Shown here: positions 27,039-52,200 of the stretch, piece after piece
How the letters are laid out: every line of letters starts with the position of its first letter
Numbering within the stretch: position 1 is the first letter of the stretch
Virus record (IMG/VR): IMGVR_UViG_3300035523_000117
Location: 18,587 to 82,586 of that record
DNA: 64,000 nucleotides
From: a virus
Direction: 5' to 3' (one strand)
The notes under the pieces: generated by a model
The model's database searches: none
Told to the model about the DNA's origin: nothing
What the model saw: only the letters and a program-made list of their open reading frames with translations
Made by a program: the position numbers and the translations under genes

Positions 27039-27368
27039 ATGGCAAAGCTACTGTTCGCTTTTGCGGTCTTGGTCCCACTTGGCTGTGTCGAGAAAACGCC
27101 GGAGTCCGTGAGTCTTGGCCGGAATCGGCAGGCCGTGGTCGCTGGACAGCGCGTTACTCCGTGTGAAACCGGCGGGGGGTGCGTCAGCGGCTACTGCATC
27201 GATGTCGAGTGGCTTGGCCTGGGCGGGCCGCGTCATATCTGCACCACGAGGTGCAGCGAGGGCGCCGGCTGCGCCGAAGGCTGGGAATGCCGGGAAGAGC
27301 AGAGTCCTGGTGGAGTGCGCGAAGGGTTCTGTATTCCAATGATGGTTGGGGAGGCCGCCAATGAGTAA
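27039..27368 (+). CDS. Secreted cysteine-rich lipoprotein upstream of Rhs
   Basis: This 109-residue protein has signal MAKLLFAFAVLVPLGC (lipobox VPLGC) and eight mature cysteines in the pattern CETGGGCVSGYC, CTTRCSEGAGCAEGWEC, resembling dickerin/EGF-like secreted proteins of Myxococcota. GAGGA lies nine bases before the ATG. The stop overlaps the Rhs start (ATGAGTAA), so the two are translationally coupled and perhaps act together at the outer membrane. Confidence 0.7.
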   Translation: MAKLLFAFAVLVPLGCVEKTPESVSLGRNRQAVVAGQRVTPCETGGGCVSGYCIDVEWLGLGGPRHICTTRCSEGAGCAEGWECREEQSPGGVREGFCIPMMVGEAANE

Positions 27369-30300
27369 GTGCAGCTTGCCTTTGTCGCAGCGGCTTGGCG
27401 CAGCGCTTGTGGGAATCGCTTTGGCCATCGTCCTACAGCTGCCAGCTCCCGCTCACGCCTGCTATACCTGCCCCTGCCCTAACGAGACGACGGTCTACTC
27501 GAACCTCTACGTCTGCCTTGGGGCATGCGGGTTCAATTGCGCTCCTCAGTGCCTTGAGAAAACGGGGACAGAGTGCGAACAGAAGTTGAAGTGCGACGGT
27601 TCCGGCCTAGAGCAAGGTAGCTTTCGCGCGAATTGCGAGCAGCCTGACAAGAACTGTGAAGGCCAAGTAGGCGGCCCGGTCAATCTCGCGACTGGCGCGA
27701 TGTGGCACCGGCCGGAAGCCGATGTGACCCTTCACAATCCGTTCCCATTTTCGATCCGCCGGGGTTACTGGTCCAAACTAGCCGAGCGCACCCCACCAAG
27801 ATCCTCGATTCTCTCGAACGGGTGGGGAATCAATATCTTCGAATCCGCCAAGATAATCGAGTCCGCACCAGACGTTGACTGGGCCGCCATCTACAGATGG
27901 GACGGTTCCATCGACATCTTCCGCGCACCGAAGGACAGCGCCAGTTGGGAGGCGGAGACGGGCAAGCGTCGGGATCTCTCGGGCGTCAAGGCGAGCGGCG
28001 TGCTGACGATGATCGACGAAGAGGGAGTATCCCGGGTCTTCAAAGGCCAGACCGTTGGCCAGCCATGGTTGATAACGTCGATAATCCCACCGGCCGGGTC
28101 CTCGCAGGCGGTCAACATCTGCTACGCGCCAGGATCGGATCCAAACAACGGAACGTGCTCCTGCTCGGGAACTCCTGCCAGCACCTCACTTCCCTGCCGC
28201 ATCGAACCTGCTGCGGGGTGGGCCATCAAGCTTGAGTACGTCAACCAAGGCGGATGGCGGCTTCAGAGCCTGAAGCTATGGGACACCATCAACCAAGCCC
28301 CAGGCGCAATCATTGCGGCCTACGGTTACGACAGCAGCAACCGGCTTAGTCTGGTCAGAGGCGCACGTTACACCTACGAGGGAAACACCTACTACCTCTC
28401 CAAGGTCGAAGGACAGGTAGGATCGAGTTGGGCCATGCAGGAAAGCCACGTCTGGAAGAACATCCTCAATGCTACCTGCACGACGACTAAGGACTGCCGC
28501 GTGACGCAGACAGAAGTTCCTGGCGAAAAATACACTATGACGTACAACACCGGCACGCAAACATACACAACTATCGTGAAAGACGAGTACAAGACCGGCA
28601 CGCAGACCTACACATTGACCTTCAATCTTCCCGACAACAAACTCGTCGGAGTCAGTCCGGCAGGGGGCTGCAAGTCGGGAGCGGTGTCGGGCTATTCGTA
28701 CAACACTAGCCATGCCTTGGGACTGCTGCCCTACGCCGTCCAGTTCGCTGACAACTCGTTCACGAGTCTCGTGGTCGACAACAACGGCGATATCCGAAAG
28801 CTCGTTCAAGGCGATGATGACGACGACGCATCGACCATTCCAGCGACCGAGGCAGCCTGGGAGACAATCGACTATCATCCCGCATTTGGGACTCCCAAGG
28901 CGCTGACCCGCCCTAGCCTCTGCGGCGGGCCGAACGCGCGAGCCTATCTAATCTACGACTATGACGACCCCGCTGGGAGTCCAACGCCGACCTTCTGCGG
29001 TCCAGGAAATTGCTCGGCCACTCTCGCTCCTGCGGACTTCAATAGGCAGACGTTTCCGCTCAAGCAACCGCAGCGGGAGATCCGGATTGGCTGGACTAAC
29101 AGCATCAACAATACCTGCGGAACCCAGAAAGCCTACGTCAGGACCTTCGAGTACGATTCCTCGGGACGATTGACCAAGATCCACGGCCCGGTTTCCGACC
29201 AGCTGACGGAGTTTGAGTACTACTCGGACCTCGATCCGCTGTTGTCCAAGCGGAACAGGCTCCAGAAGATCAAGGTTCTCTCTGCGAGCCCCTCGACCTA
29301 CCTGACCTGGGAGATCACGAGCTACGACGAACTCGGCAACCCCAAGACCATAGTCGATGCTTCGTTGCAGACTTGGGACGTGACCTATGTGAACGAGAGG
29401 ATAGCGACTATCACCCAACCAGGCACAGGCGGCAACCGCACGACGACCTTCAGCTACGGTGGCGACGGCGAGCTTGAGACCGTAACTCTTCCGCAGGGGA
29501 ACGCTGTCCAGTACGTGTACAACTCCACCACACGCCTCCTCACCAATATCAAGCGGAAAACGAGCCCAACGGGCACGGTGCTCGAGTGCCTGGAGTTCAC
29601 GCGCGGAGACACTCACAACCCTGCGCGCGTCACCCTCGAGTCTTATTACACCGGCGACTGCTCCGGCGGGACTCTTATGCTGAAGGAGGGGTACGCCTAT
29701 GGCCAGGACATCAAAGGGCTGCCGACGACCGCGACAACCTATCGCGAATCGAGCAGCACAGGGCACAATCGGTCGGTTCTCTACGACACAATGTATCGGC
29801 TATGGAAGCTCACAGACGAGAACCATTCGCAAGAAAACTTGAAGTACACATATACCCGGATGGGGTTGCTCAAATTGGTCGAGCGCGCGCAAAACAACGC
29901 CTACCAGAACGCTCAGGCTTTCGAGTATGACCTCCACGGCAATCTTCAGAGCGCTACCGACGGCATGGCGCGCACCACCGCCTATGGATACGACGACTTT
30001 GAACGGGTGATCTCCACCTCTGGGCCGATGACAGTGACCTACGTCTACGACGACGGGGATAGGGTAACCTCAAGAGTCGAGAAGGTGTTCATGGGCGACC
30101 GAGGCATTTGCCGGCCACCCAGTCAGTGTCCCACCGCTTCGAATCAGACCATCAGTTTCTCTTACGACCTCGCCAATCGACCAACTGGAAAGTCGGGCCG
30201 CGATCTCTCGGTGACTGCCACCTATGACGACGGCGACATCTATGTGTTCAACTGCATTGGAGGAATTGGAACGCTACTTCAGCGGAGGGCCGGCCGGCTG

Positions 30301-32166
30301 GCGTCACTAGATCGCGAAACCACGACTGGGAACGTGACCAAGCTCAAGTTCGGGTACGACGAGCTAGGCCGTGTACTCCTCGAGGCCCGCCAGGACGAAG
30401 GCAAGTCCTGCTATCACATCATCGGCAGAACATACGGCGCGAATGGACAGCTCACCTCCATGAGCTATCCGAGCGGTCGCGTGGTCGAGTACGTATTTGG
30501 CGGGGCGGATGTCGACCGGCCAACGGGCATTCGGATGACCCCGCGAGGCCTCGCTCAGAGGGACGTGCTCACCAACGTCGCTTTTAAGTGGGGGATGCCG
30601 AGCACATGGAAAGACGGGGCCAACCAGACTACCGACATCACCCGCAACTATGACGGCAGCGAGTTGGAGCGAAAGCTCACGAAGGCGGACTTGTCGACGG
30701 GCATTACCTGGAGGGTAGACAGCCGGGACGCCATGGGCAACCCGACAGCTCTGCTTGAAAAGGATGGGGCGGTAGTCCTTCAGTCCTCGAGCTTTTCGTA
30801 CGATGAATTCAGCCAAGTCGCCCCGACCGATTACTCCTATAACGCGGCCGGGGACCGCACCCGGGCGCCCAACCTCATAGCAAACTTGGTTTACGCATAC
30901 ACGGGCTGGAATCTGACGACCGTGAGCCGTCCGAATAGTGAATTCTGCTTCTACCCGAGCTCTCAGGTGACTAACTTTGCCTATACCGACGGGTCTCGGC
31001 CGGCTTACAAGCGAACGACGTCCTATCCATGTGATGGTCCAGTGTTCCCAGCCCCGACGTCAACGTACACCTACTACCGCTACACCGTCGATGGGCTGCA
31101 TAGCATGACGGAAGGCTCGCGATCCTTCACCTATGACGGCCTCAAGCGGCGGGCTTCTTGGTCCAACATCTCTGTGGTTCCGAACGTCACGGCATATGAG
31201 TTCTGGTCGCCGGACAACCGATTGCTCGGCGAAATTGGCTATTACAGCACTAGTGGGATCGGTCCGCGGCCCATTAAGGAGTACATCTATCTTGGCAACG
31301 AGCGAGTGGCCGTGGCCACGGGAGAATGGTGCGACGGAGTGGCCATTATCGGCAAGTGCACGGTAGGGCAGTACATTGAGGGCACCACTTATTATCTCCA
31401 GGGCAACCACTTGGGCGCCACCATTCAAGCGACCAATTCAACCGGCACCTGGGTGATGCGGGCCTCCTATGGGACCTTCGGCAACAAGACCCTATCGGGC
31501 AGTGGCTTCGACATTGGCGGGCTTGCCTTCGCGCCCGGCCTCCCCGGACAATCAGATGCTGCAGGGTCGGACCCGCTCTACAATGGCCAGCGCTCCTATC
31601 TTGCGGGGTACGGCCGCTACATGCAGCCGGAGTCGGTCCTCCAGGTCCCGGGCTTGGTTCGTGACTATGCTGCGGCGGGCATGCCACTCAATGCGTTCCA
31701 GTATGCCGCCAACAATCCGCTTCGCTACATTGATGCCGACGGCCTCAAGCCTGGCGACTACTTCCCAACTGCGGAGGAAGCTGCGCGGGATGCTCTGGAT
31801 TACTACAAGGCGGACAGCAAGAAGAACCACAGGGAGTATGGCGGAAGACTTTACAAATCCGTAGATTTCGCACACAAGGACAAACCCTACGTTGCTACGC
31901 CAGACAACGGACAGGGCACAAGCAGCAGTTGCAAGATTGAGGCTTGCCGCAATCCTTTGCAGGGGTCCCCCGGGAAATGCGCTGGCGACTATCACACACA
32001 TGGCGCAAAATCCACGACACACAAGGATGAGGAGTTTTCTGGCGAGGACAAGGACCAAAACGACAAAGACAACCTGCCGGGCTTCCTTCTTACGCCTGGG
32101 GGCAAGTACTTGAAGTATTCCCCCGCGCCGGGAAAGCCGAGAGGCGGCACGGTTTCGCCATTCTGA
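27361..32166 (+). CDS. Secreted Rhs/YD-repeat polymorphic toxin
   Basis: This 1601-residue protein has a Sec signal peptide (LGAALVGIALAIVL...AHAC), an Rhs N-terminal module (PVNLATGAMWHRPEADVTL, DUF6531-like) and many YD repeats forming the Rhs shell (YGYDDFERVIS, FSYDLANRPTGK, FGYDELGRVLLE). The conserved core end is YGRYMQPESVLQVPG and NAFQYAANNPLRYIDADG. The variable C-terminal ~150 residues carry GDYHTHG followed by EFSGEDKD, a H-x-H...S-x-x-D pattern like JAMM metalloproteases and DUF4329-type tips. Intact across 4.8 kb. Confidence 0.9.
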   Translation: MSKCSLPLSQRLGAALVGIALAIVLQLPAPAHACYTCPCPNETTVYSNLYVCLGACGFNCAPQCLEKTGTECEQKLKCDGSGLEQGSFRANCEQPDKNCEGQVGGPVNLATGAMWHRPEADVTLHNPFPFSIRRGYWSKLAERTPPRSSILSNGWGINIFESAKIIESAPDVDWAAIYRWDGSIDIFRAPKDSASWEAETGKRRDLSGVKASGVLTMIDEEGVSRVFKGQTVGQPWLITSIIPPAGSSQAVNICYAPGSDPNNGTCSCSGTPASTSLPCRIEPAAGWAIKLEYVNQGGWRLQSLKLWDTINQAPGAIIAAYGYDSSNRLSLVRGARYTYEGNTYYLSKVEGQVGSSWAMQESHVWKNILNATCTTTKDCRVTQTEVPGEKYTMTYNTGTQTYTTIVKDEYKTGTQTYTLTFNLPDNKLVGVSPAGGCKSGAVSGYSYNTSHALGLLPYAVQFADNSFTSLVVDNNGDIRKLVQGDDDDDASTIPATEAAWETIDYHPAFGTPKALTRPSLCGGPNARAYLIYDYDDPAGSPTPTFCGPGNCSATLAPADFNRQTFPLKQPQREIRIGWTNSINNTCGTQKAYVRTFEYDSSGRLTKIHGPVSDQLTEFEYYSDLDPLLSKRNRLQKIKVLSASPSTYLTWEITSYDELGNPKTIVDASLQTWDVTYVNERIATITQPGTGGNRTTTFSYGGDGELETVTLPQGNAVQYVYNSTTRLLTNIKRKTSPTGTVLECLEFTRGDTHNPARVTLESYYTGDCSGGTLMLKEGYAYGQDIKGLPTTATTYRESSSTGHNRSVLYDTMYRLWKLTDENHSQENLKYTYTRMGLLKLVERAQNNAYQNAQAFEYDLHGNLQSATDGMARTTAYGYDDFERVISTSGPMTVTYVYDDGDRVTSRVEKVFMGDRGICRPPSQCPTASNQTISFSYDLANRPTGKSGRDLSVTATYDDGDIYVFNCIGGIGTLLQRRAGRLASLDRETTTGNVTKLKFGYDELGRVLLEARQDEGKSCYHIIGRTYGANGQLTSMSYPSGRVVEYVFGGADVDRPTGIRMTPRGLAQRDVLTNVAFKWGMPSTWKDGANQTTDITRNYDGSELERKLTKADLSTGITWRVDSRDAMGNPTALLEKDGAVVLQSSSFSYDEFSQVAPTDYSYNAAGDRTRAPNLIANLVYAYTGWNLTTVSRPNSEFCFYPSSQVTNFAYTDGSRPAYKRTTSYPCDGPVFPAPTSTYTYYRYTVDGLHSMTEGSRSFTYDGLKRRASWSNISVVPNVTAYEFWSPDNRLLGEIGYYSTSGIGPRPIKEYIYLGNERVAVATGEWCDGVAIIGKCTVGQYIEGTTYYLQGNHLGATIQATNSTGTWVMRASYGTFGNKTLSGSGFDIGGLAFAPGLPGQSDAAGSDPLYNGQRSYLAGYGRYMQPESVLQVPGLVRDYAAAGMPLNAFQYAANNPLRYIDADGLKPGDYFPTAEEAARDALDYYKADSKKNHREYGGRLYKSVDFAHKDKPYVATPDNGQGTSSSCKIEACRNPLQGSPGKCAGDYHTHGAKSTTHKDEEFSGEDKDQNDKDNLPGFLLTPGGKYLKYSPAPGKPRGGTVSPF

Positions 32167-32634: not shown

Positions 32635-35181
32635 ATGAATCCATTTTCGATACGCTTTTCTAGTTACCTCCTAGCTTTCGCTCTCTTTGCGACGATCGGG
32701 TGCTTTGACCCCAGAGGCGAGCCTGACGCCGGAGGTAACCCCAGAGCGGATGCGACTGAGCGTCGAAATGATTCGGGTGACGAAGTGGAAGATGCCGCCG
32801 GGGCCGGACCACGCGACGCGGACCGTAGCGACTGGGCCGACGCAGGTGGCGTATTGGAAGACGCCGCTGGGCCTGCACTTCACGATGCGAACGGAAACGC
32901 TCCGGCCGACGCTTCCGCACCGCCCCAGGATGCAGGTGGTCCATGGGACGATGACGCCGGGCATGGTCTACACGATGCTAGCGACAATGCCGCCGCCGAC
33001 GCCTCCGAGCCGTTGGATGCAGCCTCGTCGCCGCTCCAGGTGATCACACAGAGTCCTATCGCAGCGATGCTCCAGGCCCCAGTCTCAGTCGAACTGCAGG
33101 CCGTTGGCGGAGTGCCTCCGTATCGTTGGGCCGTCGCCCCGACCTCCACTCTCCCCGCCGGCTTCCACCTCTCGAGTGATGGCCAACTCAGCGGTGTCGC
33201 GTCGCTCCTGGGCCGCTTCGCCTTCGCGGTCATCGTGACAGATGCCGGCGTGCAGTCAGCCGCGGCGACGCTCGAGCTCGTCGTCGCCAACGTCGTCACC
33301 AACGACGCTTGCAGCACCGCCGCAGAGGTCGTCCTGAGCACCGGCGAGGCCATGCTCGTCGGTACGCTCCTCGGGGCCAGGCCCGACGGGGCCTCGGAGG
33401 CCTGCGGAGGCTCCGCTCAGGTTGCTGACATCTACTACTCGTTCGATGTGGCAGGAACCTCGAACGTGGAATTCTCGGTGTCCGCCCCACACTTCGCCGC
33501 GATCTTCCCCGAAAGCTGCAGTGCGGCCCTCGCGTGCTCCACGAGCACCCGGCAAGCCCTCTCTCCAGGCCGCTACATCCTAGCGGTCGCGGGCCCGGAG
33601 AACGACTTCCAAGTCAACCTGAAGGTGACCGCATTCACGTCCGACTCGTGCGACGACGCGTTCGTGATCGACCTTTCTTCCGGGACCGCCAAGGTCGCGG
33701 GCAGCTTTGCCGGCGCTGCGTCCGACTTCACTTCGAATTGTGGCGCGGGGGCTGACCGCGTCTACTCGTTCGAGCTGACGTCCGCCGCCGATTTGGTGAT
33801 CGCCGACGACGCCCCCACGACGAGCCACACGATCAAGTCGGTGCGGAAAGGCCCCTGCGCGAGTTCGAGCGAGATCGCCTGCTCAACGGACGCCAGGTAC
33901 GTCATTCGCAATCTCCAACCGGGCCCGTACCAGCTCGTCCTAGCGCCGGGGTCGACCTCGATGCAATACTCGGTTAGCTTGTCGCTGTACTCGCCGACCC
34001 TTCCGCCGGCCAACGATGACTGTGCGTCGGCGACGCCGGCAGTCTTTGTTCATGACGTCGCAACGTTGAGCGGCACCCTCCTCCTGGCGGGTTACGAGAT
34101 GGCACCCTGGTGCGGCGACGCGTACGCCGACGTTTACTTCTCCATCGACCTCATGTCCCCATCAAACCTCGAAATTTGGAAGGGCACCGCCAACTTGAGA
34201 GTCCAACTCTTGTCCGGGACCTGTGGAAACCCGGTGGAGTTGGCATGCGACTACAACGAAGGTCGAACGTGCAGCTCGGGGCTCCCTCCAGGGCGCTACT
34301 ACGTGCGCGTTGCCACCGACTCCGAAAACGGTGCAGGGCCCTTTACGGTTGTAGTCGACCGCAAGGACGTCCCCACGTCGCCCCCGAACCAGAGTTGCGC
34401 GACGGCTCTGCCGATCGCGCTGGCGAGCGGCAAGGCTCAGGTCCGAGGGCTGCTCGCGCTCGCGGGCGACGGGTTCACACCCTCCTGTACAGGCTCAGTG
34501 CCGGAGGCCCTTCACGATGTCGTCTACTCGCTGTCCCTCACCGAGCGCTCCGATGTCGTGCTGTCGCTCGACTCGTTCTGGCCGTTTTTTGAACAGTACT
34601 CGGTCGTGTTCCTATCCGGCGATTGTCAAGCCCCCATCGAACTCGGCTGTAACGACGGCTATTCGCGCTCCCCGCTCCATCTCTTCAGCATCCCCACCGG
34701 CGACTACTGGGTGGTGGTGCAAGGCGGGATGCGAGAGCCCAATGACTGCTGGGAGGGGGCTTTTGCTCTCGCAGTCACTGCTACCCCTTCGCCTCCCCCC
34801 CCGCCCAACGACAACTGCGGTGCGCCGGCCGTCCTTTCGTTCGCTGGGCCTGGGAGCACAGCCTACATCTCTGGCACGACCTTGGGCGCAGCGAACGACT
34901 ACTCGGCGGTGAGTTGCTTCCCGTTGGCTCCTCTCCCAGGGGCCGACGTGGTCTACGCGTTCGATGTCATTTCGCCGGCAGCGCTGCGGGTCTCCTCTGA
35001 CACCATCGGGCTCAGGTTCTTCTTGACGGCCGCATGCGGATCTTCGGCCGCCATCGCTTGCAGCACTGGTTCCGAGCCTGCGATCCTCACGACCAACCAG
35101 CTTCCCGTGGGCAGGTATTACCTAGTGGTCGACACGACCGGCCCCTCTTCCGACTTCCTGCTGGCCGCTCAGACTCAATGA
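32635..35181 (+). CDS. Large repeat-containing surface lipoprotein
   Basis: This 848-residue protein has lipobox TIGC and a ~110-residue Asp/Ala/Gly linker with quasi-repeats (DAAGPALHDANGNAPADAS). It then has a putative Ig-like domain (PYRWAVAPTSTLPAGFHLSS, He_PIG type) and five beta-sandwich repeats each opening with a D/N-C pattern (NDACSTAAEV, SDSCDDAFVI, NDDCASATPA, NQSCATALPI, NDNCGAPAVL) and containing GRY(Y/I)(L/V)(V/A)V, like pre-peptidase C-terminal domains. Surface anchoring is likely; no catalytic motif was found. Confidence 0.75.
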   Translation: MNPFSIRFSSYLLAFALFATIGCFDPRGEPDAGGNPRADATERRNDSGDEVEDAAGAGPRDADRSDWADAGGVLEDAAGPALHDANGNAPADASAPPQDAGGPWDDDAGHGLHDASDNAAADASEPLDAASSPLQVITQSPIAAMLQAPVSVELQAVGGVPPYRWAVAPTSTLPAGFHLSSDGQLSGVASLLGRFAFAVIVTDAGVQSAAATLELVVANVVTNDACSTAAEVVLSTGEAMLVGTLLGARPDGASEACGGSAQVADIYYSFDVAGTSNVEFSVSAPHFAAIFPESCSAALACSTSTRQALSPGRYILAVAGPENDFQVNLKVTAFTSDSCDDAFVIDLSSGTAKVAGSFAGAASDFTSNCGAGADRVYSFELTSAADLVIADDAPTTSHTIKSVRKGPCASSSEIACSTDARYVIRNLQPGPYQLVLAPGSTSMQYSVSLSLYSPTLPPANDDCASATPAVFVHDVATLSGTLLLAGYEMAPWCGDAYADVYFSIDLMSPSNLEIWKGTANLRVQLLSGTCGNPVELACDYNEGRTCSSGLPPGRYYVRVATDSENGAGPFTVVVDRKDVPTSPPNQSCATALPIALASGKAQVRGLLALAGDGFTPSCTGSVPEALHDVVYSLSLTERSDVVLSLDSFWPFFEQYSVVFLSGDCQAPIELGCNDGYSRSPLHLFSIPTGDYWVVVQGGMREPNDCWEGAFALAVTATPSPPPPPNDNCGAPAVLSFAGPGSTAYISGTTLGAANDYSAVSCFPLAPLPGADVVYAFDVISPAALRVSSDTIGLRFFLTAACGSSAAIACSTGSEPAILTTNQLPVGRYYLVVDTTGPSSDFLLAAQTQ

Positions 35182-35500
35182 CCGCCGTCGTTCGCACCGC
35201 AGACATGGGGGTAACAGGGTTCCGTTTCCCCTCGCGAGCAGTGCTCTCTGCGCCAACCTCGCGTCTTCACAGGGGGATCCGGGCCGAAGATCTTCCGCCC
35301 AAGCCGCCCGGCGTGGTTCGCCCGGTGGGGGTAATGGGGAGCTTCGGTTTCGGAAGCGCGAAAGAAGAGACAGAAAAGTAAACAGTCGCCCTCGGGCCTT
35401 CGGGACCGGGGGCTTCTGCTTTTCGGCCCTCCTCACGCCACGTTGCGCACGTCAGGTCGGAGCGGCCGGCTCTCTCCGGTTTTGGCCGAGCGCATGGTTG

Positions 35501-35569
35501 CCCGCGTGCCACTGGGGAGTGGCACGCGGGGACCCAAGCCTCTCTCTCCGTGGGGGCGGAGAGAGAGGC
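35501..35569. terminator. Two adjacent perfect hairpins between convergent genes
   Basis: CCCGCGTGCCACT (35501-35513) pairs with 35518-35530 over 13 bases with loop GGGG. Eight bases on, GCCTCTCTCTCCG (35538-35550) pairs with 35557-35569 over 13 bases. They lie in a 512-bp gap between a plus-strand and a minus-strand gene, so a bidirectional terminator is likely. Short open frames through this gap read the hairpins and are not credible genes. GTAAACAGT-like words recur at about 35378, 35575 and 35592. Confidence 0.65.
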
Positions 35570-35693
35570 CCGTCGGTTAACAGTCAGAGTGCTGGTAAAC
35601 AGTTCGCTGGGCCCCAGAGAGAGCGGATCGCGAACCGCGTCGGCCTGGCCATTCGCCTTCCTTGGCCGGGACACGACGCGCATCCGTGTTGAG

Positions 35694-35921
35694 CTAGCCC
35701 TCTTGCTCCGGCATGACGGCAGTGTACTTGCGGATCAGTTCGGCCTCGTGTTCGGAGAGGAGAACGCGTTCTCCATCGACATCGATGAACTTCTCGCCAG
35801 TCTGCTGGTTTTTCTGGACCGTTCCTCGGCCCACGACGAACGTCTGTCTCTTGGCGACTGAGATGCAGACAGTGCCAGGTAGCACGTCTCTATCGATGAA
35901 CTCGACGAACCAGTTGCCCAT
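35694..35921 (-). CDS. Small protein of unknown function
   Basis: This 75-residue protein (MGNWFVEFIDRDVLPGTVCI...) is preceded by GGAGGGAAGCGCC, a strong ribosome-binding site. The sequence is beta-rich with a C-terminal helix (LLSEHEAELIRKYTAV). It lies 31 bases after the large winged-helix protein on the same strand, so it is probably the last gene of that transcript. No family is recognised. Confidence 0.6.
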   Translation of the reverse strand: MGNWFVEFIDRDVLPGTVCISVAKRQTFVVGRGTVQKNQQTGEKFIDVDGERVLLSEHEAELIRKYTAVMPEQEG

Positions 35922-35952: not shown

Positions 35953-38901
35953 CTACGCCGCCGCGGTGTACGTCGCGCTGCTCTTCACGCCCTTCATCAC
36001 GATCTTGCCCGCGGCACGCAGCCGGCGCAGGCCCGAGGCGATGTCCTGCGGGGGCATCTCGATCCGCCCCTGGATGTCGAGCGAGCGCATGCCGGGGGTG
36101 GCCTTCACCAGCTCGAGCAGCTTGGTGTCGTCCTTGGCGACCTCTTTGGGCGTGCGCTTCTTCAACTTGGTGATCTTCGTCCGAGCCTTGCGGTCTGGGC
36201 GGGCCGCCACGGCGACTGCCGGGGCCGAAGCTGCCGGCGCGGGTGAGTGCTTCGCCGGGGCGCTCACCGGCGCGGCAGCACCGCCGAGCGCACGTTCCAC
36301 GACGGCCTGGACCTCGGCGCCAACGCGTTCGCGAAGGTTCTGGGTGACCGCAGCCACGAGCTTCTGGGTGAACTCCTCGATGAGAGGACGTAGCGCGACT
36401 TCGATCGGCTCGGCTTCAGGCATGGGTTGCTCCGGTTCTTCTGCAACGCGTGGAATCGCTGGCACTACCCCGACCTCAGCTGGAGATGAACCCTGCCGGG
36501 CGCCGGGCTCGCACTTCGTCAGGTGGACCGACCGGCCGTGAGCTATTTCCACCAGTGCCGCGCGATCAACGACCCGTGTTCGCGGCCCGGTTCTGCGGAT
36601 AAGCCCCGCACTCGCCCATTCGGCGAGGTGCTCGTATACGCAGGTCTTGGATGCCCCAATGTCGAGAGCAATGCGCTTGTACGGCACTGTGAATTCGCCC
36701 GACTTGTCGCCGGTCATGTCGAGCAATGCAGCGGCAAGGTGCTGTGCAACGTCGCGGTCCAGTGCCGCGAGTGAGCAGAGGTCCATCTCGTCCAGTACTG
36801 CTTGCGTCAGTTCGCGGACGCCATCGGCAGCAACACCGCATCGCACCAGCTCGGTGCGCAATGCATCTACCCGAGGCGGACGTGGCGCACCTGGATGGGA
36901 GCGACCGGTCTGTGCGGCCACTCTTCGTAGCGCCTCGATATCTGGGATCTTCAGCTTGTTGACACTGCCCCATCGCCCGGCGGAGACCAGCAGTCCTTCG
37001 CGCAACCACCTTCTGACCAAAACCGAGACGTGCTGATGGGCCACAGAGATCTTGGGACCAATCTGCGCGAACTTCGCCAGAAACGGCTTGGGCCTCCTCT
37101 TGCTGCTATGGCTGCGCCAACTCAACAGGAGGAGCTCGCGAACGAGACGCTCAGCAGCGCTGGACGATCGCGACCACCGCACCGACGCGCGCAGCGCAGA
37201 AGCGACCACCTCGACTGCGCGGATGGCTGCCTCCCCGTGGACGTCCGCGTTCTCGACCAGCCGGCGTGCGACTTCAGACGGCAGGCGTAGGTCTTCTCTG
37301 TGTTCGGTGGCGGCGGTCGGCGAACCCGCGACAGGCAGGCCCGGCGAGGGCGTTGGGCTGGCCGGCGCCTTCGTGAGGGCGTTCGCGGCGGTGTCGGCGC
37401 CCCGCCCCATGTACCTGCCCTTGCGTGGCGGGGCCTTTTCCGCGGCAGGCGTCGCGCGCCTAGGTTCCCGCAACGAGAGCGTCGCGGTGATCAGCGTGAA
37501 AGCCCCTGTTGCCCGCTCCGCCAGCAGCTTCCCCCGGAGGGTGAAGGCTGCGTCGGGCTTCGTAGCGAGGGTGGCCAGGGCCCTTCTAACTTCGCCTCCA
37601 CGGAACTGGACGTCGACATCGCCTTGCCAGCGACGGATGTACAGCTTGGTGGGCGAGTCCTCGAAGTTCAGCAAGGCCGAAGCGGCAAGCGGCGCGCTCA
37701 CGGCGAGCCAGTCGACGTGCACGTGGGTCGACCACCGCTGCTGCTTCGCGGAGGCCCCTGCCGCGCTGACCAGCCGCGCTTTGGGGCGCTCGCCGAGGTG
37801 AACCAGGCTCGATGGGTCGGAGCAGCTGAGGCGAGCGTCGTCGATCTCGAAGAACTTGTGGCCCGGAGAGCAACGCAGTGCGCCACGGAGCGTGAGCTCG
37901 GATGAGGTTCGTCGGCCGACCCTCGCCAACGCACGGCGGGAACTCCTGCCGTTCAAGAACGCCGGGATGCCGAAGCGCATGCCCTCGAGGTCGACGTACC
38001 AGTTGACCTGGTCCGTGCCATAGACGGACTCGGGCGGGATCTCCTTCGCGTCGAGAGGCACCGCGATCTCCAGCCCGCGAACGACGAGGGCCTGGGGCCC
38101 GACGGGCGAGGATGATGTGGTTGGCGGAGATGCCGCAACAGGCGCGGCGGCGTTGTCTGGCGCGCTCGCTGGCGTGTGTTCAGCGAGGGGCGGCGTCAGG
38201 CCGGTGTCCGGAGCGACTGCGTCGGAACAGGTTGTCCCGTCAGTGGGCGTAGGCGCTGGCCTCTGGTCGAAGTAGCCATCCTCGATCTGCAGGCCGCCAG
38301 GCCCCCACGAGAGCCGTCCGGTCAGCACCATGAGTCCAGCGTCGTGCGCGGTCGCCACCTCGGGGATCCCCCCGTCGCGCAGTGCGACCGGGATCCGTTC
38401 GGGCCAGCCCTCCAATGCCAATCGGCACTCCGAGGTCGGTGCCAGGCCGGCAAGATCCTCGGCGGCTACGGAGGCATTCACGGGCAACCACGCGAACGTG
38501 AGCCGAGCCTCGCCCGCCGAGGGGCCACTGGGACCGCGCGTGGGACGCACGGTCTGCGTCACGCGGACGGACGGAGGCGCCCGCGGCGATAGCTCTCCGG
38601 TGCGCAGTCCAGCACACGTCAGCTCGAGGTCGCGACCGTTGAAGCCGCACCGGAGGGCGCCTTGGAGTTGGACCTCCACGCCACCTTCACGTGCTGTTTC
38701 AAGCGCGACCACTGCTCGGCGGTAGCGCTTGCCGCTGAGTCGCGCCGGGATGGCGAGGTCCTTGCTGCCCTCGAGGTCGATGTTCCAGACGACGTCGCGC
38801 GCAGTGCCCTCACGTGCGACGACTTCACGAGGGAAGGTGGTCGCTGGGACGACTACCACGACGTTGAGGGCGCGAACGCGAAGCAGATCTGACCTTGGCA
38901 T
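35953..38901 (-). CDS. Large protein: beta repeats fused to three winged helices
   Basis: This 982-residue protein is of a type I do not recognise. Residues 1-~470 hold three copies of a beta-rich repeat: IDLEGSKDLAIPARLSGKRY...LQGALRC, VDLEGMRFGIPAFLNGRSS...LRGALRC, and a diverged third ending FTLRGKLLAER. A Pro/Ala linker follows. Then come three winged-helix segments: KISVAHQHVSVLVRRWLREG, RIALDIGASKTCVYEHLAEW, and the C-terminal MRSLDIQGRIEMPPQDIAS. The start at 38901 begins at the first repeat; an alternative ATG at 38973 adds 24 residues. Probably DNA-binding and cytoplasmic. Confidence 0.65.
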   Translation of the reverse strand: MPRSDLLRVRALNVVVVVPATTFPREVVAREGTARDVVWNIDLEGSKDLAIPARLSGKRYRRAVVALETAREGGVEVQLQGALRCGFNGRDLELTCAGLRTGELSPRAPPSVRVTQTVRPTRGPSGPSAGEARLTFAWLPVNASVAAEDLAGLAPTSECRLALEGWPERIPVALRDGGIPEVATAHDAGLMVLTGRLSWGPGGLQIEDGYFDQRPAPTPTDGTTCSDAVAPDTGLTPPLAEHTPASAPDNAAAPVAASPPTTSSSPVGPQALVVRGLEIAVPLDAKEIPPESVYGTDQVNWYVDLEGMRFGIPAFLNGRSSRRALARVGRRTSSELTLRGALRCSPGHKFFEIDDARLSCSDPSSLVHLGERPKARLVSAAGASAKQQRWSTHVHVDWLAVSAPLAASALLNFEDSPTKLYIRRWQGDVDVQFRGGEVRRALATLATKPDAAFTLRGKLLAERATGAFTLITATLSLREPRRATPAAEKAPPRKGRYMGRGADTAANALTKAPASPTPSPGLPVAGSPTAATEHREDLRLPSEVARRLVENADVHGEAAIRAVEVVASALRASVRWSRSSSAAERLVRELLLLSWRSHSSKRRPKPFLAKFAQIGPKISVAHQHVSVLVRRWLREGLLVSAGRWGSVNKLKIPDIEALRRVAAQTGRSHPGAPRPPRVDALRTELVRCGVAADGVRELTQAVLDEMDLCSLAALDRDVAQHLAAALLDMTGDKSGEFTVPYKRIALDIGASKTCVYEHLAEWASAGLIRRTGPRTRVVDRAALVEIAHGRSVHLTKCEPGARQGSSPAEVGVVPAIPRVAEEPEQPMPEAEPIEVALRPLIEEFTQKLVAAVTQNLRERVGAEVQAVVERALGGAAAPVSAPAKHSPAPAASAPAVAVAARPDRKARTKITKLKKRTPKEVAKDDTKLLELVKATPGMRSLDIQGRIEMPPQDIASGLRRLRAAGKIVMKGVKSSATYTAAA

Positions 38902-39017
38902 GAATTGCTGAGGAATACCGTCAGGCACACGCCGCTGGCAGGCGCTACATCGGGTAGGGCAGAGCAAGCCCATTCACTCTCGTGTAGCGCCTGCGCCGGT
39001 ATTGGACACGAGTGCAA

Positions 39018-39584
39018 CTATCCCCCTGCATCGGGCTCCTCTCCGCCATCTAGAAGACCGGCGTCTGGCACAACGTTGGGCCTAAGCTTGGCCGGACACT
39101 GACCGTACGGAGCGACGTTCGATTCCGCCGCTGGGGATCTACATTCCGGCTTCGGCGAATAGAGCGCATCTCTGGACATCGTGATCTCCAGCACTTGCCC
39201 TTTGGGCACGCCTTCGTTCGAGACTACCTTGATGTTCTTCGGCGAGTATCCAACCGCTTTGGCCGTAATCACGACCGTCGCACCACTAGAGCAGACCGAG
39301 CCGGATGGCACCTGGATCGCGAATCCCCAGCAGCAAGAAAACGTGTCGTTGCCGCAGGCCTCACACAATGAATCCTGTGGCGCACACACCCTCCAGCCCC
39401 AGGGGTCGGTTCGCGCCAATCCACTACAGCCTTCGGCGTCGAATTCCAGACACGCTTCCGAGATCCGGCGCCCGTCCAGCTCGTCTACCAGCGCGAGATT
39501 GGCGATCGTGCGATTCTGAGGTGTTTCAGGAATGCAGCACGTAAGCGTCATTGCCGCGAACAGAAAAGATGGAAGCGCACGCAT
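39018..39584 (-). CDS. Lipoprotein downstream of the S8 protease
   Basis: This 188-residue protein starts MRALPSFLFAAMTLTCC with a lipobox-like end, has a CarboxypepD_reg-like stretch (ELDGRRISEACLEFDAEGC; VVITAKAVGYSPKNIKVV) and an Asp/Gly tail (PDAGLLDGGEEPDAGG). GGGAGG lies upstream and the gene begins 20 bases after the protease stop, so they form an operon. It could be a partner, substrate or inhibitor of the protease. Confidence 0.65.
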   Translation of the reverse strand: MRALPSFLFAAMTLTCCIPETPQNRTIANLALVDELDGRRISEACLEFDAEGCSGLARTDPWGWRVCAPQDSLCEACGNDTFSCCWGFAIQVPSGSVCSSGATVVITAKAVGYSPKNIKVVSNEGVPKGQVLEITMSRDALYSPKPECRSPAAESNVAPYGQCPAKLRPNVVPDAGLLDGGEEPDAGG

Positions 39585-39603: not shown

Positions 39604-42600
39604 CTAGCGAAAATCAAGAGTGAGGACGCGAAGGTTGGGCCTAGGCGCAACGAGGTCGTCGGCATAGCCTACGACCAGCAACGTCCTCGTGCCGCCTCCC
39701 GGCAATGAGGCTGGTGTCGAGAACGCGAGTGACCGACTTCTTTGAACATCCGGGAAGGGATCGCCATGCACGTCCGAGTAGACGGTGATCGGTGCATACG
39801 AATGGTCGCCTACCCAGAAGAGCCCGAGGAACGTCTCAGTGACAACGCCGAGGAATTCGCCGTCGGTCGTCCAGGCTAGCTTGTCAACATGATTAGCCAG
39901 TTGAAGGAGAGAGGTGTACTCGAGCGATATCCTGGGCCGGGATTCCGTGGAGGTATCCCAGGGATCGAAGAAGAGAACCTCGGCCGGGCCCGAGAGGCGG
40001 TCACGAGCCGTTCCGAGGACAATCTCCCCCGTTACCGGCGAAAGTGCGCATGCCGTCTGGTTGCCGATCGAAGCTGTGCTCACGGACAGGAGAGGCTCGA
40101 ATAGCCGGGGCCAGTATGCAAACGAGTCGTTGCCCGTGCCCACGGCTGCGATGCTTGAACTAACCGCCAGGCACTCAGGCTGAAGTCTGGCCATGACGGC
40201 CGAGGCCACTGTGGAAACGGTCCCGTTGGCGTTTGCCCGGAAAATGGAGGGTTCGTTCTTGGTGATGAAGAACAAGTCCTCTGACGCTGGCCCAGCAGGC
40301 CCCCAACTCGCGTCGCGAATTGGGAAGATGCCGGGCGAAGTGAAGCTGGCGAGTTCCGGGAAACCGCTGGACGTCGCGTCGAGCAGATAGAGGTGGCCGT
40401 CGTCGCAGGCTACGGCGAGCCTCCGATCGTCGCGCGACCATGCAACGCGATTGACGCTGTGGTCTCCGAATTTCCGCCTGAAGACCACGGCCTCGTTCGG
40501 AATGGAACCTGCCTCCAAAGCGGCGCGCTCGATAACCACAACTTGAGCGTCATTTCCTAGCGCCTGCCCCCGCGTTCCCATCGCGAGAAGGCTTCCGTCA
40601 TGGCTGAACTCCAGTGTGAGCACGTCGTTCGGGGCGACGCGCTGCTCTTGCACGATCGATACCGTCGGGAAAAGCGTATCGGACGCGCGCAGAGCCTCGT
40701 AGCAGTTCAGCCTGCCTCCCCACTCGACTTTCCCTGCAAGCCCGGGTATCCGGTCCACGCCTCGCTGGATTGCCGCGCGAACCTGGTACGGCTTGAAATC
40801 TGGGTGGAGTTGGAGGATGAGCGCTGCGCATGCACTCACCATCGGTGCCGCAGCGGAGGTGCCTGAGAACTGCCCATAGTCACCGTTGCCGCCACTGCCG
40901 CCCGCCGCCGTTCCAAAGCGCCAATTCGTGTGGCGGTTATCAATTGGGACATGGTGCGTCACGAAGGTCGTCACGAGTTGGTCCTCGGTGCCCGGGGCCG
41001 CTAGTTGGACAGTGCGCGCGCCGAAGTTGCTGAATCCCGCGAGTGCATCGGACGCATCGGTCGCACCAACGGTGATCACGTTCTGCCCGCCTTGTTTGGG
41101 CGCGGGGAAATTGGCGTGCCGGTCGTTGTCAGTCGTCGCGTTGCCCGCGGCGATGACGAAGACCATGTCGTTCTCAAAATTGTCGAAGATATCGGGATAC
41201 GGCCAAAGCAGGTTCAGGATTGACGCACCAGCGTCTTCAACGGCGAGGCCCCAACTGATGTTGACCACCCGGGCCCCAGCCACCTTCGCCAACTTGATTG
41301 CCTGTATGCCTCCAGCTGGGTCGTTCACTGACGAAATCAAGACATTGTTGTCGATGTTTGCGATCACGCTCGTACGCAGATTGAGCGCTTTGACGTTCCA
41401 AGCACCGCCAGTTACTCCGATGCCGTTGTTTCCAGCCGCGGCAATGACACCAATGACCCCGGTGCCGTGACCATCGGAGTCCATGGGACTCGGCCCCTGA
41501 GTTGAATTCTCGTATGGCAACGGGTTGAACCAGCGCAATGTTCCGTCGATGGAAAGGTCTAGGTTTGGAATCAGGTCTGGGTGGTTCTCGTCGCACCCAG
41601 TGTCCAGGACGGCGACCTTGACTTGCTGCACTGCTCCGGAGGTTGTGTAGGGCGCGATCCCTCTGTCAGCGAGATAGTCCCACGCCCCAGGAAGACAGCC
41701 TGCGCAAGTCCCGGAGTCGCATATCCCACTCGAGCAATGGGACGATGCGGAACACGACTTGCCGAAATCGGGGTTCTCTGGGCATGGCGTTGTCGGATTG
41801 GAGGCGGCAAAGCGAGCATTGCGGAGGGCGGGGGCCGTCGCTTCAACGTCCCAGGCGGGGCGGACCGCGGGCCAAACCGGGTCGTTAGGAACCACGGCGT
41901 TCACTCGTGTGACGGGGACTGGCGATTCTCCGATTACACCAGGACTGGTGTCGTAATGAATCAGGCCCTCGGCCAGCGTGACGGTCGGAGGAAGCTCCAT
42001 CACAAACCAACCAAGGGCGGCATCGAGTTGGAGCTTCATTGTCGCGCCAATGGGCGCGTTGACCGACTCCGGCTGCACACCGGCAGCGAGCTTGACGAAG
42101 ACCTCGTTGACCCAGTACCGCTGCGCGACGATCACCACCTTCTCGACGGTGAACGAGTTCGCGACAAGGTCGGAGGCACTCACTGATAACCGGTTAATCG
42201 TGAAGGTCTTGCCGGGATCAGCCCTGAGTGCGATAGCGACTGAGAACCTTCCGTCCGGCGAAAGTGCGAGCGACTGGGTTGTGGGCGGAAGCCCGTCGGC
42301 GGCCACTGTGAGGCTGGCGGAATTGACCAGACTGTCGTCCTCGATTGTTCCCTCAAGTGTGATGGATGTGTTCGGCACCATCACATCGCTTGGCACCGTC
42401 GAGGTAATCAGGACCCGAGGAGGAGTGTTGTCTACGCGAACCTTCTGGAAGTAGGAGTGGGCAGTCTCCTGCGGCCCGCCACCCGCCGGCACAAGCGTAG
42501 CGGTGACCGAATAGAGGTAGTCGTTGTCGGCGACGAAGCTCCCGTCGCGGTCCTTCCCGTCCCAGTCTTGAGATAGGGGCACCCTCGCCTGTCCACCGCC

Positions 42601-43386
42601 TGAAGGCACAGTCGCCTCTGCTGAGAGGGTCCGAATCGGGAGGCATGTGACGGGATCGATGACATCGAACGCGTAGCGGATCGTCGCCGGCTGGTCATCC
42701 ATGAGCCGCACGAATGCCTCCGCGCTTAGGACCGACCGATCGAAGGCACTATCGTGGTTCCTCGGCGAGATTGGGTCGGGCGAGTCGGCGAGACCGCCAA
42801 CAGAAAGCTTCAATTTGTCTGGCGCGGCCGTCCCGGGCCCAACAGGGCTTTTCCCGGAAACTTCGACTCGCAGACTGCCGTCATGCTGGGACTTGAACCG
42901 AGCGTTCAGCACGTGGGCGCCAGCTGCGACAAGCACCGGGAGGCGGACAGTGGTTCCGGGCACCAGCCTCTTCTCGTCTAGGAGAAGACTGCCATCTAGA
43001 GTCACTTTGCCGAACAGCACGCGATCGTCGACCACTGTGGCGACCAAGCAGACGCTCGTCAGAGCAGGAACCGAGAACGGGAGATCCAGCCCGTTCGCCG
43101 CATTGGTCGTTCCTGGGTCATCAGCGACATCTGTTGGGCCAGCCAGCAAGACGCTGTCGGATCCCGGCACGCAGACGTAGGGGTCGGCCACTCCGCTCGG
43201 CTCCGGTGCAGGCGGCGAAGACCAACCGTCGTCGACGACCGAAAACCCGCAGTTGGGCTTGCTGGGGTCGCCAGTTACTGGAGGCTGATTCGACGGGGCA
43301 CATTCCACGAGTACCAGCAGTCCGGTCAATGCAAAGATGGGGCGTCGAAATGCCGAAGCGGGGTACCGCCGATAAGCTAGGTTCAT
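39604..43386 (-). CDS. Subtilisin-family (S8) surface protease with beta-propeller
   Basis: This 1260-residue protein has lipobox VECA after a signal peptide, beta domains at ~100-330 (PA14-like and FlgD-Ig-like: QDWDGKDRDGSFVADNDY), a Cys-rich insert (~540-570), and the S8 catalytic triad: Asp in AVLDTGCDENHPD (~595), His in SDGHGTGVIGVIAA (~638), Ser in FSGTSAAAPMVSACAAL (~843). The last 350 residues contain propeller-like repeats (LEFSHDGSLLAMGTRG; VAWSRDDRRLAVACDDG). GAGGGAGGG precedes the ATG. All catalytic residues are present, so it should be an active extracellular protease. Confidence 0.9.
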   Translation of the reverse strand: MNLAYRRYPASAFRRPIFALTGLLVLVECAPSNQPPVTGDPSKPNCGFSVVDDGWSSPPAPEPSGVADPYVCVPGSDSVLLAGPTDVADDPGTTNAANGLDLPFSVPALTSVCLVATVVDDRVLFGKVTLDGSLLLDEKRLVPGTTVRLPVLVAAGAHVLNARFKSQHDGSLRVEVSGKSPVGPGTAAPDKLKLSVGGLADSPDPISPRNHDSAFDRSVLSAEAFVRLMDDQPATIRYAFDVIDPVTCLPIRTLSAEATVPSGGGQARVPLSQDWDGKDRDGSFVADNDYLYSVTATLVPAGGGPQETAHSYFQKVRVDNTPPRVLITSTVPSDVMVPNTSITLEGTIEDDSLVNSASLTVAADGLPPTTQSLALSPDGRFSVAIALRADPGKTFTINRLSVSASDLVANSFTVEKVVIVAQRYWVNEVFVKLAAGVQPESVNAPIGATMKLQLDAALGWFVMELPPTVTLAEGLIHYDTSPGVIGESPVPVTRVNAVVPNDPVWPAVRPAWDVEATAPALRNARFAASNPTTPCPENPDFGKSCSASSHCSSGICDSGTCAGCLPGAWDYLADRGIAPYTTSGAVQQVKVAVLDTGCDENHPDLIPNLDLSIDGTLRWFNPLPYENSTQGPSPMDSDGHGTGVIGVIAAAGNNGIGVTGGAWNVKALNLRTSVIANIDNNVLISSVNDPAGGIQAIKLAKVAGARVVNISWGLAVEDAGASILNLLWPYPDIFDNFENDMVFVIAAGNATTDNDRHANFPAPKQGGQNVITVGATDASDALAGFSNFGARTVQLAAPGTEDQLVTTFVTHHVPIDNRHTNWRFGTAAGGSGGNGDYGQFSGTSAAAPMVSACAALILQLHPDFKPYQVRAAIQRGVDRIPGLAGKVEWGGRLNCYEALRASDTLFPTVSIVQEQRVAPNDVLTLEFSHDGSLLAMGTRGQALGNDAQVVVIERAALEAGSIPNEAVVFRRKFGDHSVNRVAWSRDDRRLAVACDDGHLYLLDATSSGFPELASFTSPGIFPIRDASWGPAGPASEDLFFITKNEPSIFRANANGTVSTVASAVMARLQPECLAVSSSIAAVGTGNDSFAYWPRLFEPLLSVSTASIGNQTACALSPVTGEIVLGTARDRLSGPAEVLFFDPWDTSTESRPRISLEYTSLLQLANHVDKLAWTTDGEFLGVVTETFLGLFWVGDHSYAPITVYSDVHGDPFPDVQRSRSLAFSTPASLPGGGTRTLLVVGYADDLVAPRPNLRVLTLDFR

Positions 43387-48570: not shown

Positions 48571-49260
48571 ATGAAGGCAGGACGCGACGAGCTTGCGGGC
48601 TACGAGAACGCCCATGAGCTCGTCGCGTACCTGCGCGACGGGAAGATGGAGGCAGCCTCCCGGAACGCGCCGCTGCGCGGGCTGGTCGCGGCGGCGCAGT
48701 CCACCGACCCGTGGGCGGGGCTGGCGAGGAGCCTACTGCTGCTCTCGATGATGGCCGCGCTCGAGGCCACCGCGGGCCGGAAGCGGGGCCGGATGTGTGC
48801 CGAGGAGGTGATGGCCGAGGTCGTCGCCGAGTTCTACGAACGCATCCGCCGCTTGGACCTCGACAAGGACCCGAAGGTGGCGGCGACGCTGGTCAAGAAC
48901 ACCGAGCGCGGCGTCGGCGAGCGCGGCAGCAAGGCCCGCCGGGCGCAGGCCGCCGAGGTCCACGTCGATGCCGAGACCATCGTCGACGAGCGAACCGAGG
49001 AACCCAAGGAGCCGGCGATCCTCGGCGTGCGCCGCGCGAACGGCGAGGCCGACGCGGCGATGGCGCTCCACGAGTGGATGACGCCCGTGGTCGGCGAGAA
49101 GGACGCCGACCTGGTGCTCGGGGCGGTCGTCGCGGAGCAGAGCCAGCGCGAGCTGGCGGACGAGCTGGGCGTGACCCACGCGGCGGCGCGCAAGCGGCTC
49201 GGTCGCGCCCTCGACAAGCTGCACGACCACCTGAGCGACCGGGAACCCGAGCAGCCATGA
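48571..49260 (+). CDS. Sigma-70 region 4-like phage protein
   Basis: This 229-residue protein ends in a clear sigma-type HTH: VAEQSQRELADELGVTHAAARKRLGRALDKL. The middle (EEVMAEVVAEFYERIRRLDLD) could be a degenerate region 2. AAGGAG lies ten bases before ATG 48571; an earlier in-frame ATG at 48490 lacks a good site. The stop overlaps the primase start (ATGA). It may direct RNA polymerase to the repeated phage leaders, which is testable inference. Confidence 0.65.
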   Translation: MKAGRDELAGYENAHELVAYLRDGKMEAASRNAPLRGLVAAAQSTDPWAGLARSLLLLSMMAALEATAGRKRGRMCAEEVMAEVVAEFYERIRRLDLDKDPKVAATLVKNTERGVGERGSKARRAQAAEVHVDAETIVDERTEEPKEPAILGVRRANGEADAAMALHEWMTPVVGEKDADLVLGAVVAEQSQRELADELGVTHAAARKRLGRALDKLHDHLSDREPEQP

Positions 49261-52200
49261 CCCTCGTCGCGGTCGCGCCCCACAAGTACGTGAAGGGCTT
49301 CGACGGCTCCCAGCCGGCGCAGTGCCGGTACGACGTCATGGAGCTCGCCGAGGCCCTGTCGCGCACCTACCCGACCGACGCCCACCTGGTGACCTACGTG
49401 GTGAAGGGTTGGGAGCGGCAGCCCCGCATCAACAAGGCGGGGCTGCCGCTGGTCTCGCACCGCGTGGAGGTCGGCGTCTTCTTCTGCGACGTCGACAACC
49501 CCGCCCACGGCACCTGGACCGAGGAGTTGCGCGCGGCGGCGCTGGCCCAGGACGACTCGCTCCCCATCCTTCAGACAGTCGGCATCTACCACACCGCTCA
49601 CGGGCGCCGGATCGTTCAGCCACTCGACTCGCCCATCGCGGTGCAGGAGGTGGAGCCCTACCTCAAGCGCTGGCTCCTCGAGCTGGAGAGAGCGGGCATC
49701 GCAGTCGACTGGGCCTGCGGAGACTGGACGCGTCACTTCCGCCTGCCGAACGTCCGCATCAAGGGCCACGACTTCCGCAGCCCGCATCTGTGCCTCGAGC
49801 GGATGCGTCCAATTGCGCTCGCGCCGCTCAACACGACGACGACCGCGCCGGCTGCGGCCAGTGGTACGTCTCCACCAACCCCGGTAGTCGCGGTCGACTG
49901 GTCCCGGGACCTCCCGCCGGGCTGGCAGCCGCGCATCGAGCCCGTCGCTGCGGCGATCCGCGCCGTCACGAGCGAGTGGCACACCCTCTTCCTGGCCATC
50001 GCCGGAGCCCTCCTCGCGCGGGGCGTGCCCCCGGAGCACCTCCCGGCGATCTGCCGGTCGCTCTCGCTCTCGACGGAGACCGATACCCGCACCGACGATC
50101 GCGAAGCAGCAGCGCGAACTACGGTCCAGCGACGCCTGTCCGGCCAGCCGACCACGGGCTGGGGCGCGCTCGCGTCGAGGTGGCCCGCCGTGGCGGAAGC
50201 GCTCGACGCAGCCCTGGCCACTGGCAACGAAGCGCGTGTGCGCGCGCAGATCGCCGCCGAGCCCGACGTCCCGGTCACCTCCCTTGCCGAGACGACGGCG
50301 GCGCTGGAGGACGCGATTCGGCACGCACCCGACGGGCTCACCTTGATCCAGGCCGAGTGCGGGCTCGGGAAGACCAAGGCCGCGATGCATGTGGCGGCGG
50401 AGCGCGCTGCCAGGCCGTACGCTTCCAAGGAAGCGAAGGGCGAGCGCGCGCCGCCGCAGTCCAAAACCGCCATCTCGGTCGACAAGCACGACCTCGCGAT
50501 CCAGATCGCCGACGACCTCACGGGCCTGGGCGCGAAGGTGCGGCGGATCTTCGGGCCTCTCTCAGTCAAGAACGAGGATGGAACCCCAGCCTGCCGGTAC
50601 CACGCGATCGCAAGGCCGCTCGTCGAGGGCGGGCAGACGATGCAGTGGGAGCTCTGCCAGGGGCGTGGCGACGAGCCGTGCGAGTTCGCCGAGGGTTGCA
50701 TCGCCAAGGAGGGCGTTGAGGGCCCTGCGGAAGCGCGGATTACCGTCGGCCCCCACGCTCTACTCAACGCGCTCGACGCGGCGGCCGGCACCACGGGCCT
50801 CCTGGTCATCGACGAGCCCCCGGAGTTGCTCGACACGGTCCGCCTCTCGCTCGAGGACCTCGCGACCGCCCAGGCGCAGCTGCCTGCTTTCGACGAGAGG
50901 TTCGCGGCGGCGGCACGGCCTGCGCTCGATGCTGTCTACGCCTGGGTCGCCGAGCTGGCCACGCCGGGTGCGGTGACGACCATCCCGGAGGCGGTGCGCA
51001 CCACCGCACACCGGATCAGCCCGGCCAGCCTCGACCAGGCCCATTTCGCCACCTGCACCGCTGGCGACGCGGTCGAGTGCCTGGCCGCCGGGAACACTCC
51101 CGAGCGAGAAGGCCGGCCGCCGTTGATGAAGTTCGAGGAGGTGCGGCTGGCCCGGCGGTCGGTCGACCGGGCCACGCTGCTCGGCGCCGCCTCCAAGGCT
51201 CTGTGGACCCTCTATCGCGCCGTGGTCTCCAAGGATCCGGTCGCGGCGCGCGTCGAGGACCTCGACCGGCTGGGGCGCGTGTTGCTGGTCACCTTCTCGC
51301 GCGACCAGCTCGCCCGCGCCCTCAAGCGCGAGGGGGCAGTCGTGGTCATGGACGCCAACGCCGACCTTGCCCGCCCGGCGATGGCGAAGGTCGTCGGCTA
51401 CGAGCCGCCGCTCCACCACTTCGCCGCCGAGGACGGGGCGAGGATCACCCGCACCTTGCTGCGCTGCGGCTCGGCCACCCGCAAGGGCTGGATCAAGGGC
51501 GGCAAACTCGTCATCGACGGCAGCCTCAGCACTGCGTTGCAGGCCGCGCTCGCGTGGGCCCAGGAGGATCCAGCCGCCACCAGGCTCGGCCTCATCACCC
51601 TGCACGTGGTCGAGGTAGCGATTGCCGCCGCCCTCCACCCCGACAACAAGGAGAACGCAGGCACCTGGAAGAAGCTCCGCCAGTCGAAGAAGGCACTCGC
51701 CGAGGCCCGGGAGAAGCTCGGCCCGATCCTGCGCGCGTGGCCCGGCGAGGTACGCCTCGGGCACTACGGCGCCGTCCGCGGCCTCAACGACATGGCCGAC
51801 GTCGACTGCCTCGTCACGCTGGGCGACCCCTGGCCGAACCTGGGCGAGGTCCAGAACGAGGTCGCCTACCTCGGCCTGCCCGAGACCTGGGAGGCGCGTG
51901 TCGAGGCGCGGTGCCGGGCCGAGTTGCAGCAGGCCCATGGCCGTCTCCGTACCGTCCACCGGGCGCGACCTGGCCGGGCACTCCATGTGGGCAACGTCCT
52001 TCCCGCTGGCACCGGGTGGTCCTCGGGGCGTGTCGAGTATCGGCGGCTGGAGAACGCACCTCGCACTGCGGTCTCGACGATGCCTGCGACCGAGATCCTC
52101 GCCATGATCGAGACCCTCGGCGGCACCCGCGCAGCAGCACGCGAACTGGGCTGCGCCATCGGAGCCGTCCACAACTTCACCAGCGGGAAGCGGAAGCTGC

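Follow-up and report, generated by a model that had tools for sequence, protein, structure and literature searches.

A protein joining four putatively OB-like beta repeats to CRP-type winged helices is encoded between two related prophages

The window, a stretch of 64,000 nucleotides, belongs to a contig of 82,586 bases that carries two related, syntenic prophages (Table 1), each opening with a small gene and a large serine integrase. Comparison of the second prophage with the first by tblastn gave identities of 47% for the small gene, 45% for the integrase, 63-66% for the protein encoded at 48711-52289, which has a weak match to a DNA-transposition protein, and 68-76% for the large terminase subunit, with gene order kept as far as the genes of the right end, near 25.1-26.2 kb. 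The large terminase subunit occupies two ORFs in the first prophage (3782-5192) and is unsplit in the second, which also encodes a ParB-like N-terminus joined to a DNA methyltransferase (52695-54302). No convincing integration core repeat emerged when the first prophage was searched for one, and the exact attachment sites of the prophages were not located. The stretch between the prophages, from 27 to 43.5 kb, has a GC content of about 0.58-0.68 against 0.66-0.73 within them, and this lower GC together with its position is most simply explained by host DNA. Judging from the GC content and the Asp/Ala/Gly-rich lipoproteins, the host appears to belong to the Myxococcota. A 1606-aa Rhs protein with a C-terminal DUF4329 domain is encoded in this host DNA (27346-32166), and the gene studied here, referred to as the main ORF, is most simply read as part of it too.

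Table 1. Features of the main ORF and its surroundings, in window positions unless stated; residues are numbered from Met-1.
Feature	Position	Strand	Basis
First prophage; includes ClpP-like protease	contig 5.3 kb to window ~26.3 kb		
Two adjacent (back-to-back) strong hairpins between convergent genes, terminator-like, without U run	35495..35570	.	fold z -7.8
75-aa ORF; GGAGGG before its ATG	35694..35921	-	
Main ORF, 1006 aa (982 aa from Met-25)	35953..38973	-	
Third winged helix (res 940-1003), probable	35965..36156	-	sub-threshold PHROG matches
Amphipathic helix / oligomerisation segment (res 858-898), probable	36280..36402	-	sequence inspection; inference
Second winged helix, clear HTH_Crp_2 (res 744-809)	36547..36744	-	
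First winged helix, weak HTH_Crp_2 (res 608-684), in basic segment	36922..37152	-	
Linker (res 507-555)	37309..37455	-	
Beta repeat B2 (res 411-506)	37456..37743	-	pairwise match, profile
Beta repeat B1 (res 292-388), Cys 368/384, OB-like; structure-model query	37810..38100	-	
Linker, Ala/Pro/Ser/Thr-rich (res 239-291)	38101..38259	-	72% A/P/S/T
Beta repeat A2 (res 153-238)	38260..38517	-	match to B2, z 6.3
Beta repeat A1 (res 29-125), Cys 109/120, OB-like	38599..38889	-	pairwise match, model, profile
Upstream lipoprotein gene; GGGAGG before its ATG	39018..39583	-	lipobox by inspection
Exported subtilase with C-terminal WD40-type repeats	39604..43386	-	
Second prophage; without most structural genes	~43.5-62.7 kb		

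The main ORF runs for 1006 codons without interruption, and its codon-position GC (0.71/0.55/0.77) is of the coding type, which establishes the gene as real; these values are like those of the neighbouring low-GC genes and unlike those of the GC3-rich prophage genes. The initial annotation placed the start at 38901, which is in frame and corresponds to Met-25, but the frame reaches further, to Met-1 at 38973, where it opens right after an in-frame TGA. Neither methionine has a convincing ribosome site, and either may be the translation start. Should Met-1 be used, the added segment (38902-38973) contains within its first 12 residues a CxxxCxxC cluster (LLCPTRCSAC) that is possibly metal-binding. 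On the same strand the order is subtilase, lipoprotein gene, main ORF and 75-aa ORF, with gaps of 20, 44 (counted to Met-1) and 31 nt, and as judged from the sequence these likely form a four-gene operon with the main gene third. The 75-aa ORF is the small adjoining gene that had been noticed before; searches of Pfam, PHROG, NCBIfam and IMG/VR gave it neither a relative nor a family. The hairpins beyond it face a convergent lipoprotein gene (32635-35181, plus strand). The convergence described earlier holds, but its partner is this gene, standing between the main ORF and the Rhs gene, and not the Rhs region.

The C-terminal half of the protein carries its one certain domain, a CRP/FNR-type winged helix at residues 744-809, which matches HTH_Crp_2 (PF13545) at E 1.5e-9 with 38.1 bits against a curated cut-off of 27. 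When the two CRP-type modules were modelled without relatives, the prediction was moderately confident, and for this second winged helix only (pLDDT about 75), which in Foldseek matched crystal structures of the CRP/FNR family (best E 2.9e-4). The description of this half as DNA-binding in style thus agrees with a definite domain by both profile and fold, whereas the three winged helices proposed with it differ in standing: residues ~608-684 match HTH_Crp_2 weakly (E 0.013), and the C-terminal ~60 residues have sub-threshold PHROG matches alone, to Ren-like (E 0.0097) and MarR (E 0.067) families (PHROGs 142 and 1687). Residues 940-1003, without a Pfam match, probably form the third winged helix by the look of their sequence; this and the weaker CRP-type copy are supported rather than proven. 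The segment around the first winged helix (556-690) is strongly basic, with a net charge of +12, the C-terminal winged-helix segment is also basic, and the probable amphipathic helix is followed by an A/P linker and then a basic stretch. Set against the CRP/FNR family (e.g., Thermus CRP, 4ev0), residues 744-809 are alike in sequence and predicted fold and a second, weaker copy is present, but the protein is 4-5 times longer, carries two heads per chain, shows no detected cyclic-nucleotide or Fe-S sensor beta-roll, and has an N-terminal half unrelated by sequence. The likeness to Ren-like exclusion and MarR-like winged-helix proteins is confined to the tail.

The N-terminal half is built from four beta repeats, not three as initially counted, arranged as a duplicated pair, A1-A2 and B1-B2. 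Shuffle-controlled pairwise alignment joined A1 to B1 (z = 20), A2 to B2 (z = 6.3) and B1 to B2 (z = 8.0), with none of 1000 shuffles scoring as high in any of the three comparisons, while A1 against A2 and A2 against B1 were not significant when aligned directly. This pattern of matches identifies the half as a duplicated two-domain unit. A profile of A1 and B1 reached B2 weakly (5.8 bits, matched by 0 of 100 shuffles) and did not detect A2, and the homology of A2/B2 to A1/B1 therefore rests on the B1-B2 match. The motif D-L-E-G...I-P-A...L-x-G-A-L-R-C, given for the repeats in the initial annotation, is present but occurs only twice, in residues 29-125 and 292-388. The conserved cysteine noted with it is likewise borne out for A1 (C109/C120) and B1 (C368/C384), two in each, and has no counterpart in A2 or B2. 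Net charges of the repeats range from -6 to +5, i.e., they are not notably basic, and the linkers between domains are A/P/S/T-rich.

For the fold of the repeats, a structure was predicted with B1 as the query and the other three repeats as the alignment. The model has a mean pLDDT of 57.9 and the element order E-E-E-H-E-E(-E); at this low confidence, a helix between strands 3 and 4 of such a series corresponds to OB-fold topology, consistent with the small beta domain suspected from the sequence. A Foldseek search against PDB returned no match significant alone (best E 0.044, TM only ~0.2-0.45), and almost all of the first 50 matches were OB folds from unrelated families, many of them ssDNA-binding, including PriB, SSB, RecO, lysyl- and asparaginyl-tRNA synthetases, RPA32, Stn1/Ten1, ExoVII and OBodies. 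The viral structure library also gave several single-stranded DNA-binding proteins (SSBs). Sequence searches of Pfam, NCBIfam, PHROGs and PDB added no family support for an OB fold, and the PDB sequence matches to an Fc-binding protein, poliovirus polymerase, SspH1 and CENP-B were judged to be chance. From the model and its neighbours, we consider an OB fold probable, with moderate confidence. The resemblance to OB-fold ssDNA binders (PriB, SSB, RPA, Stn1/Ten1) lies in the predicted strand and helix order and in the best structural neighbours of a low-confidence model, whereas these proteins share no detectable sequence similarity with the repeats, of which four are here fused to CRP-type heads.

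Searches for relatives and family assignments accounted for the winged helices only, in agreement with the earlier statement that no family has this layout (Pfam, NCBIfam, PHROG, PADLOC and PDB sequence searches). In Pfam and NCBIfam, no domain family besides the winged helix was detected, including the cNMP-binding-type beta-roll sensor (PF00027) and other sensor families; SSB, PriB and RPA profiles gave no match in Pfam, NCBIfam, PHROG or PDB sequences, nor did Rep_3 (PF01051), the family of plasmid Rep initiators with tandem winged helices. A role in anti-phage defence found no support, the sole defence-family match (E 0.0028) being to a CARF model through the HTH. The whole protein had no relatives by tblastn among 50,697 phage records or in plasmids, and no relative in GTDB contigs by 8-mer seeded search; the same seeding applied to IMG/VR with the whole protein, both N-terminal halves, the CRP-type segment, the C-terminal tail and the small ORF gave nothing beyond chance. 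A profile that recovers the main gene itself at E 1e-117 or better found no relative in 399 Pseudomonadota, 297 Actinomycetota and 297 Desulfobacterota genomes; its matches in five of the Pseudomonadota genomes (E 9e-4 to 9e-3) were at chance level, three having stop codons within the match. Since the Myxococcota, the presumed host phylum, lay outside this sensitive search, the lack of relatives is weak evidence. The literature likewise yielded no description of this domain layout.

Taken together, the gene is most likely chromosomal and encodes a regulator that binds nucleic acid and combines known folds in a new arrangement. We give an even chance to the fuller reading, namely a host-encoded cytoplasmic nucleic-acid binder that most likely regulates by binding DNA. 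Its two or three winged helices would hold the protein on double-stranded DNA, where the two CRP-type heads, being on the same polypeptide, could behave as a covalently linked CRP dimer and occupy a two-half site, and the four N-terminal OB-like domains, which arose by duplication of a two-domain unit, would bind single-stranded DNA, RNA or a partner protein from their flexible linkers. Based on the model, the four small beta domains probably bind nucleic acid, and we infer both the cooperation of the two halves and the regulatory role. The CRP-type match, the OB-dominated list of model matches, the basic winged-helix segments, the A/P/S/T linkers and the host-like codon-position GC all suggest such a regulator. 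Against it stand the OB model itself, given its pLDDT and the absence of a Foldseek match below E 0.04, the near-neutral repeats, which are poorly suited to non-specific ssDNA binding, and the probable operon partners, an exported protease and a lipoprotein, which give no pointer to DNA metabolism. Conservation of a binding surface lends no support because no homologues were found.

The same neutrality of the repeats would fit a one-component transcription regulator, a possible though rather unlikely alternative in which the beta repeats sense a signal or bind proteins and so control the CRP-type output heads. Such an output domain is present, and it normally comes paired with a beta sensor; A1 and B1, alone among the repeats, each have exactly two cysteines in equivalent positions, which could serve as a redox or metal switch, and a probable operon with secreted products is open to control by a regulator. 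However, no cNMP-binding or other sensor family was found, and the structures closest in fold are OB folds, not CRP beta-rolls or PAS/GAF domains. An RPA/SSB-type replication or recombination factor, whose OB-like domains would coat ssDNA while its winged helices direct it to an origin or to a site of damage, is decidedly unlikely: its appeal comes from a Foldseek list rich in PriB, SSB, RPA32, Stn1/Ten1 and RecO and from the part set of RPA, several OB domains plus a winged helix (PMC8329085), but the repeats are not basic, the operon includes no replication or repair gene, and none of the RPA, SSB, PriB or Rep families matches the protein in sequence. The protein also differs from RPA in being a single bacterial chain with CRP-type winged helices.

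Very improbable, and already disfavoured, is a cargo or regulator of a mobile element tied to the serine integrase, as the initial annotation suspected: the gene lies ~4.6 kb from the left end of the second prophage and its GC reaches 0.66-0.68 over part of its length, slightly above its immediate neighbours, but its codon-position GC is host-like, searches of phage records and IMG/VR gave no match, the syntenic sister prophage starts with the same small gene and integrase and is flanked there by other genes, with no copy of the main ORF, and the gene is absent from the phage records related to the first prophage, that of a close relative included. An integration module is indeed nearby, beginning ~4.6 kb upstream of the gene start, but it stands behind two genes and is part of the prophage. 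Closeness to the recombinase is most likely incidental, as the first prophage flank and the related phage records are without the gene, and the link drawn to the recombinase is not supported.

Returning to the protein as a whole, its domain order is real and unusual, the folds that make it up are probably known ones, and the databases searched gave no known relative. Four OB-like domains and CRP-type heads in one bacterial chain match no family model used here, although the folds are apparently known ones, and the combination of OB and winged-helix parts is best known from eukaryotic and archaeal RPA. There is a slim chance that the protein represents an undescribed bacterial family in which a duplicated OB-type ssDNA-binding pair, two covalently joined winged helices of CRP type and a tail as the third DNA-binding part form an RPA-like binder aimed at chosen double-stranded DNA sites, e.g., keeping DNA melted where regulation or replication takes place. 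Should the OB part bind ssDNA or RNA, the protein would be a regulator able to recognise nucleic acid in double-stranded as well as single-stranded form, and if it is merely a lineage-specific regulator, its value would be that of a new domain for annotation.
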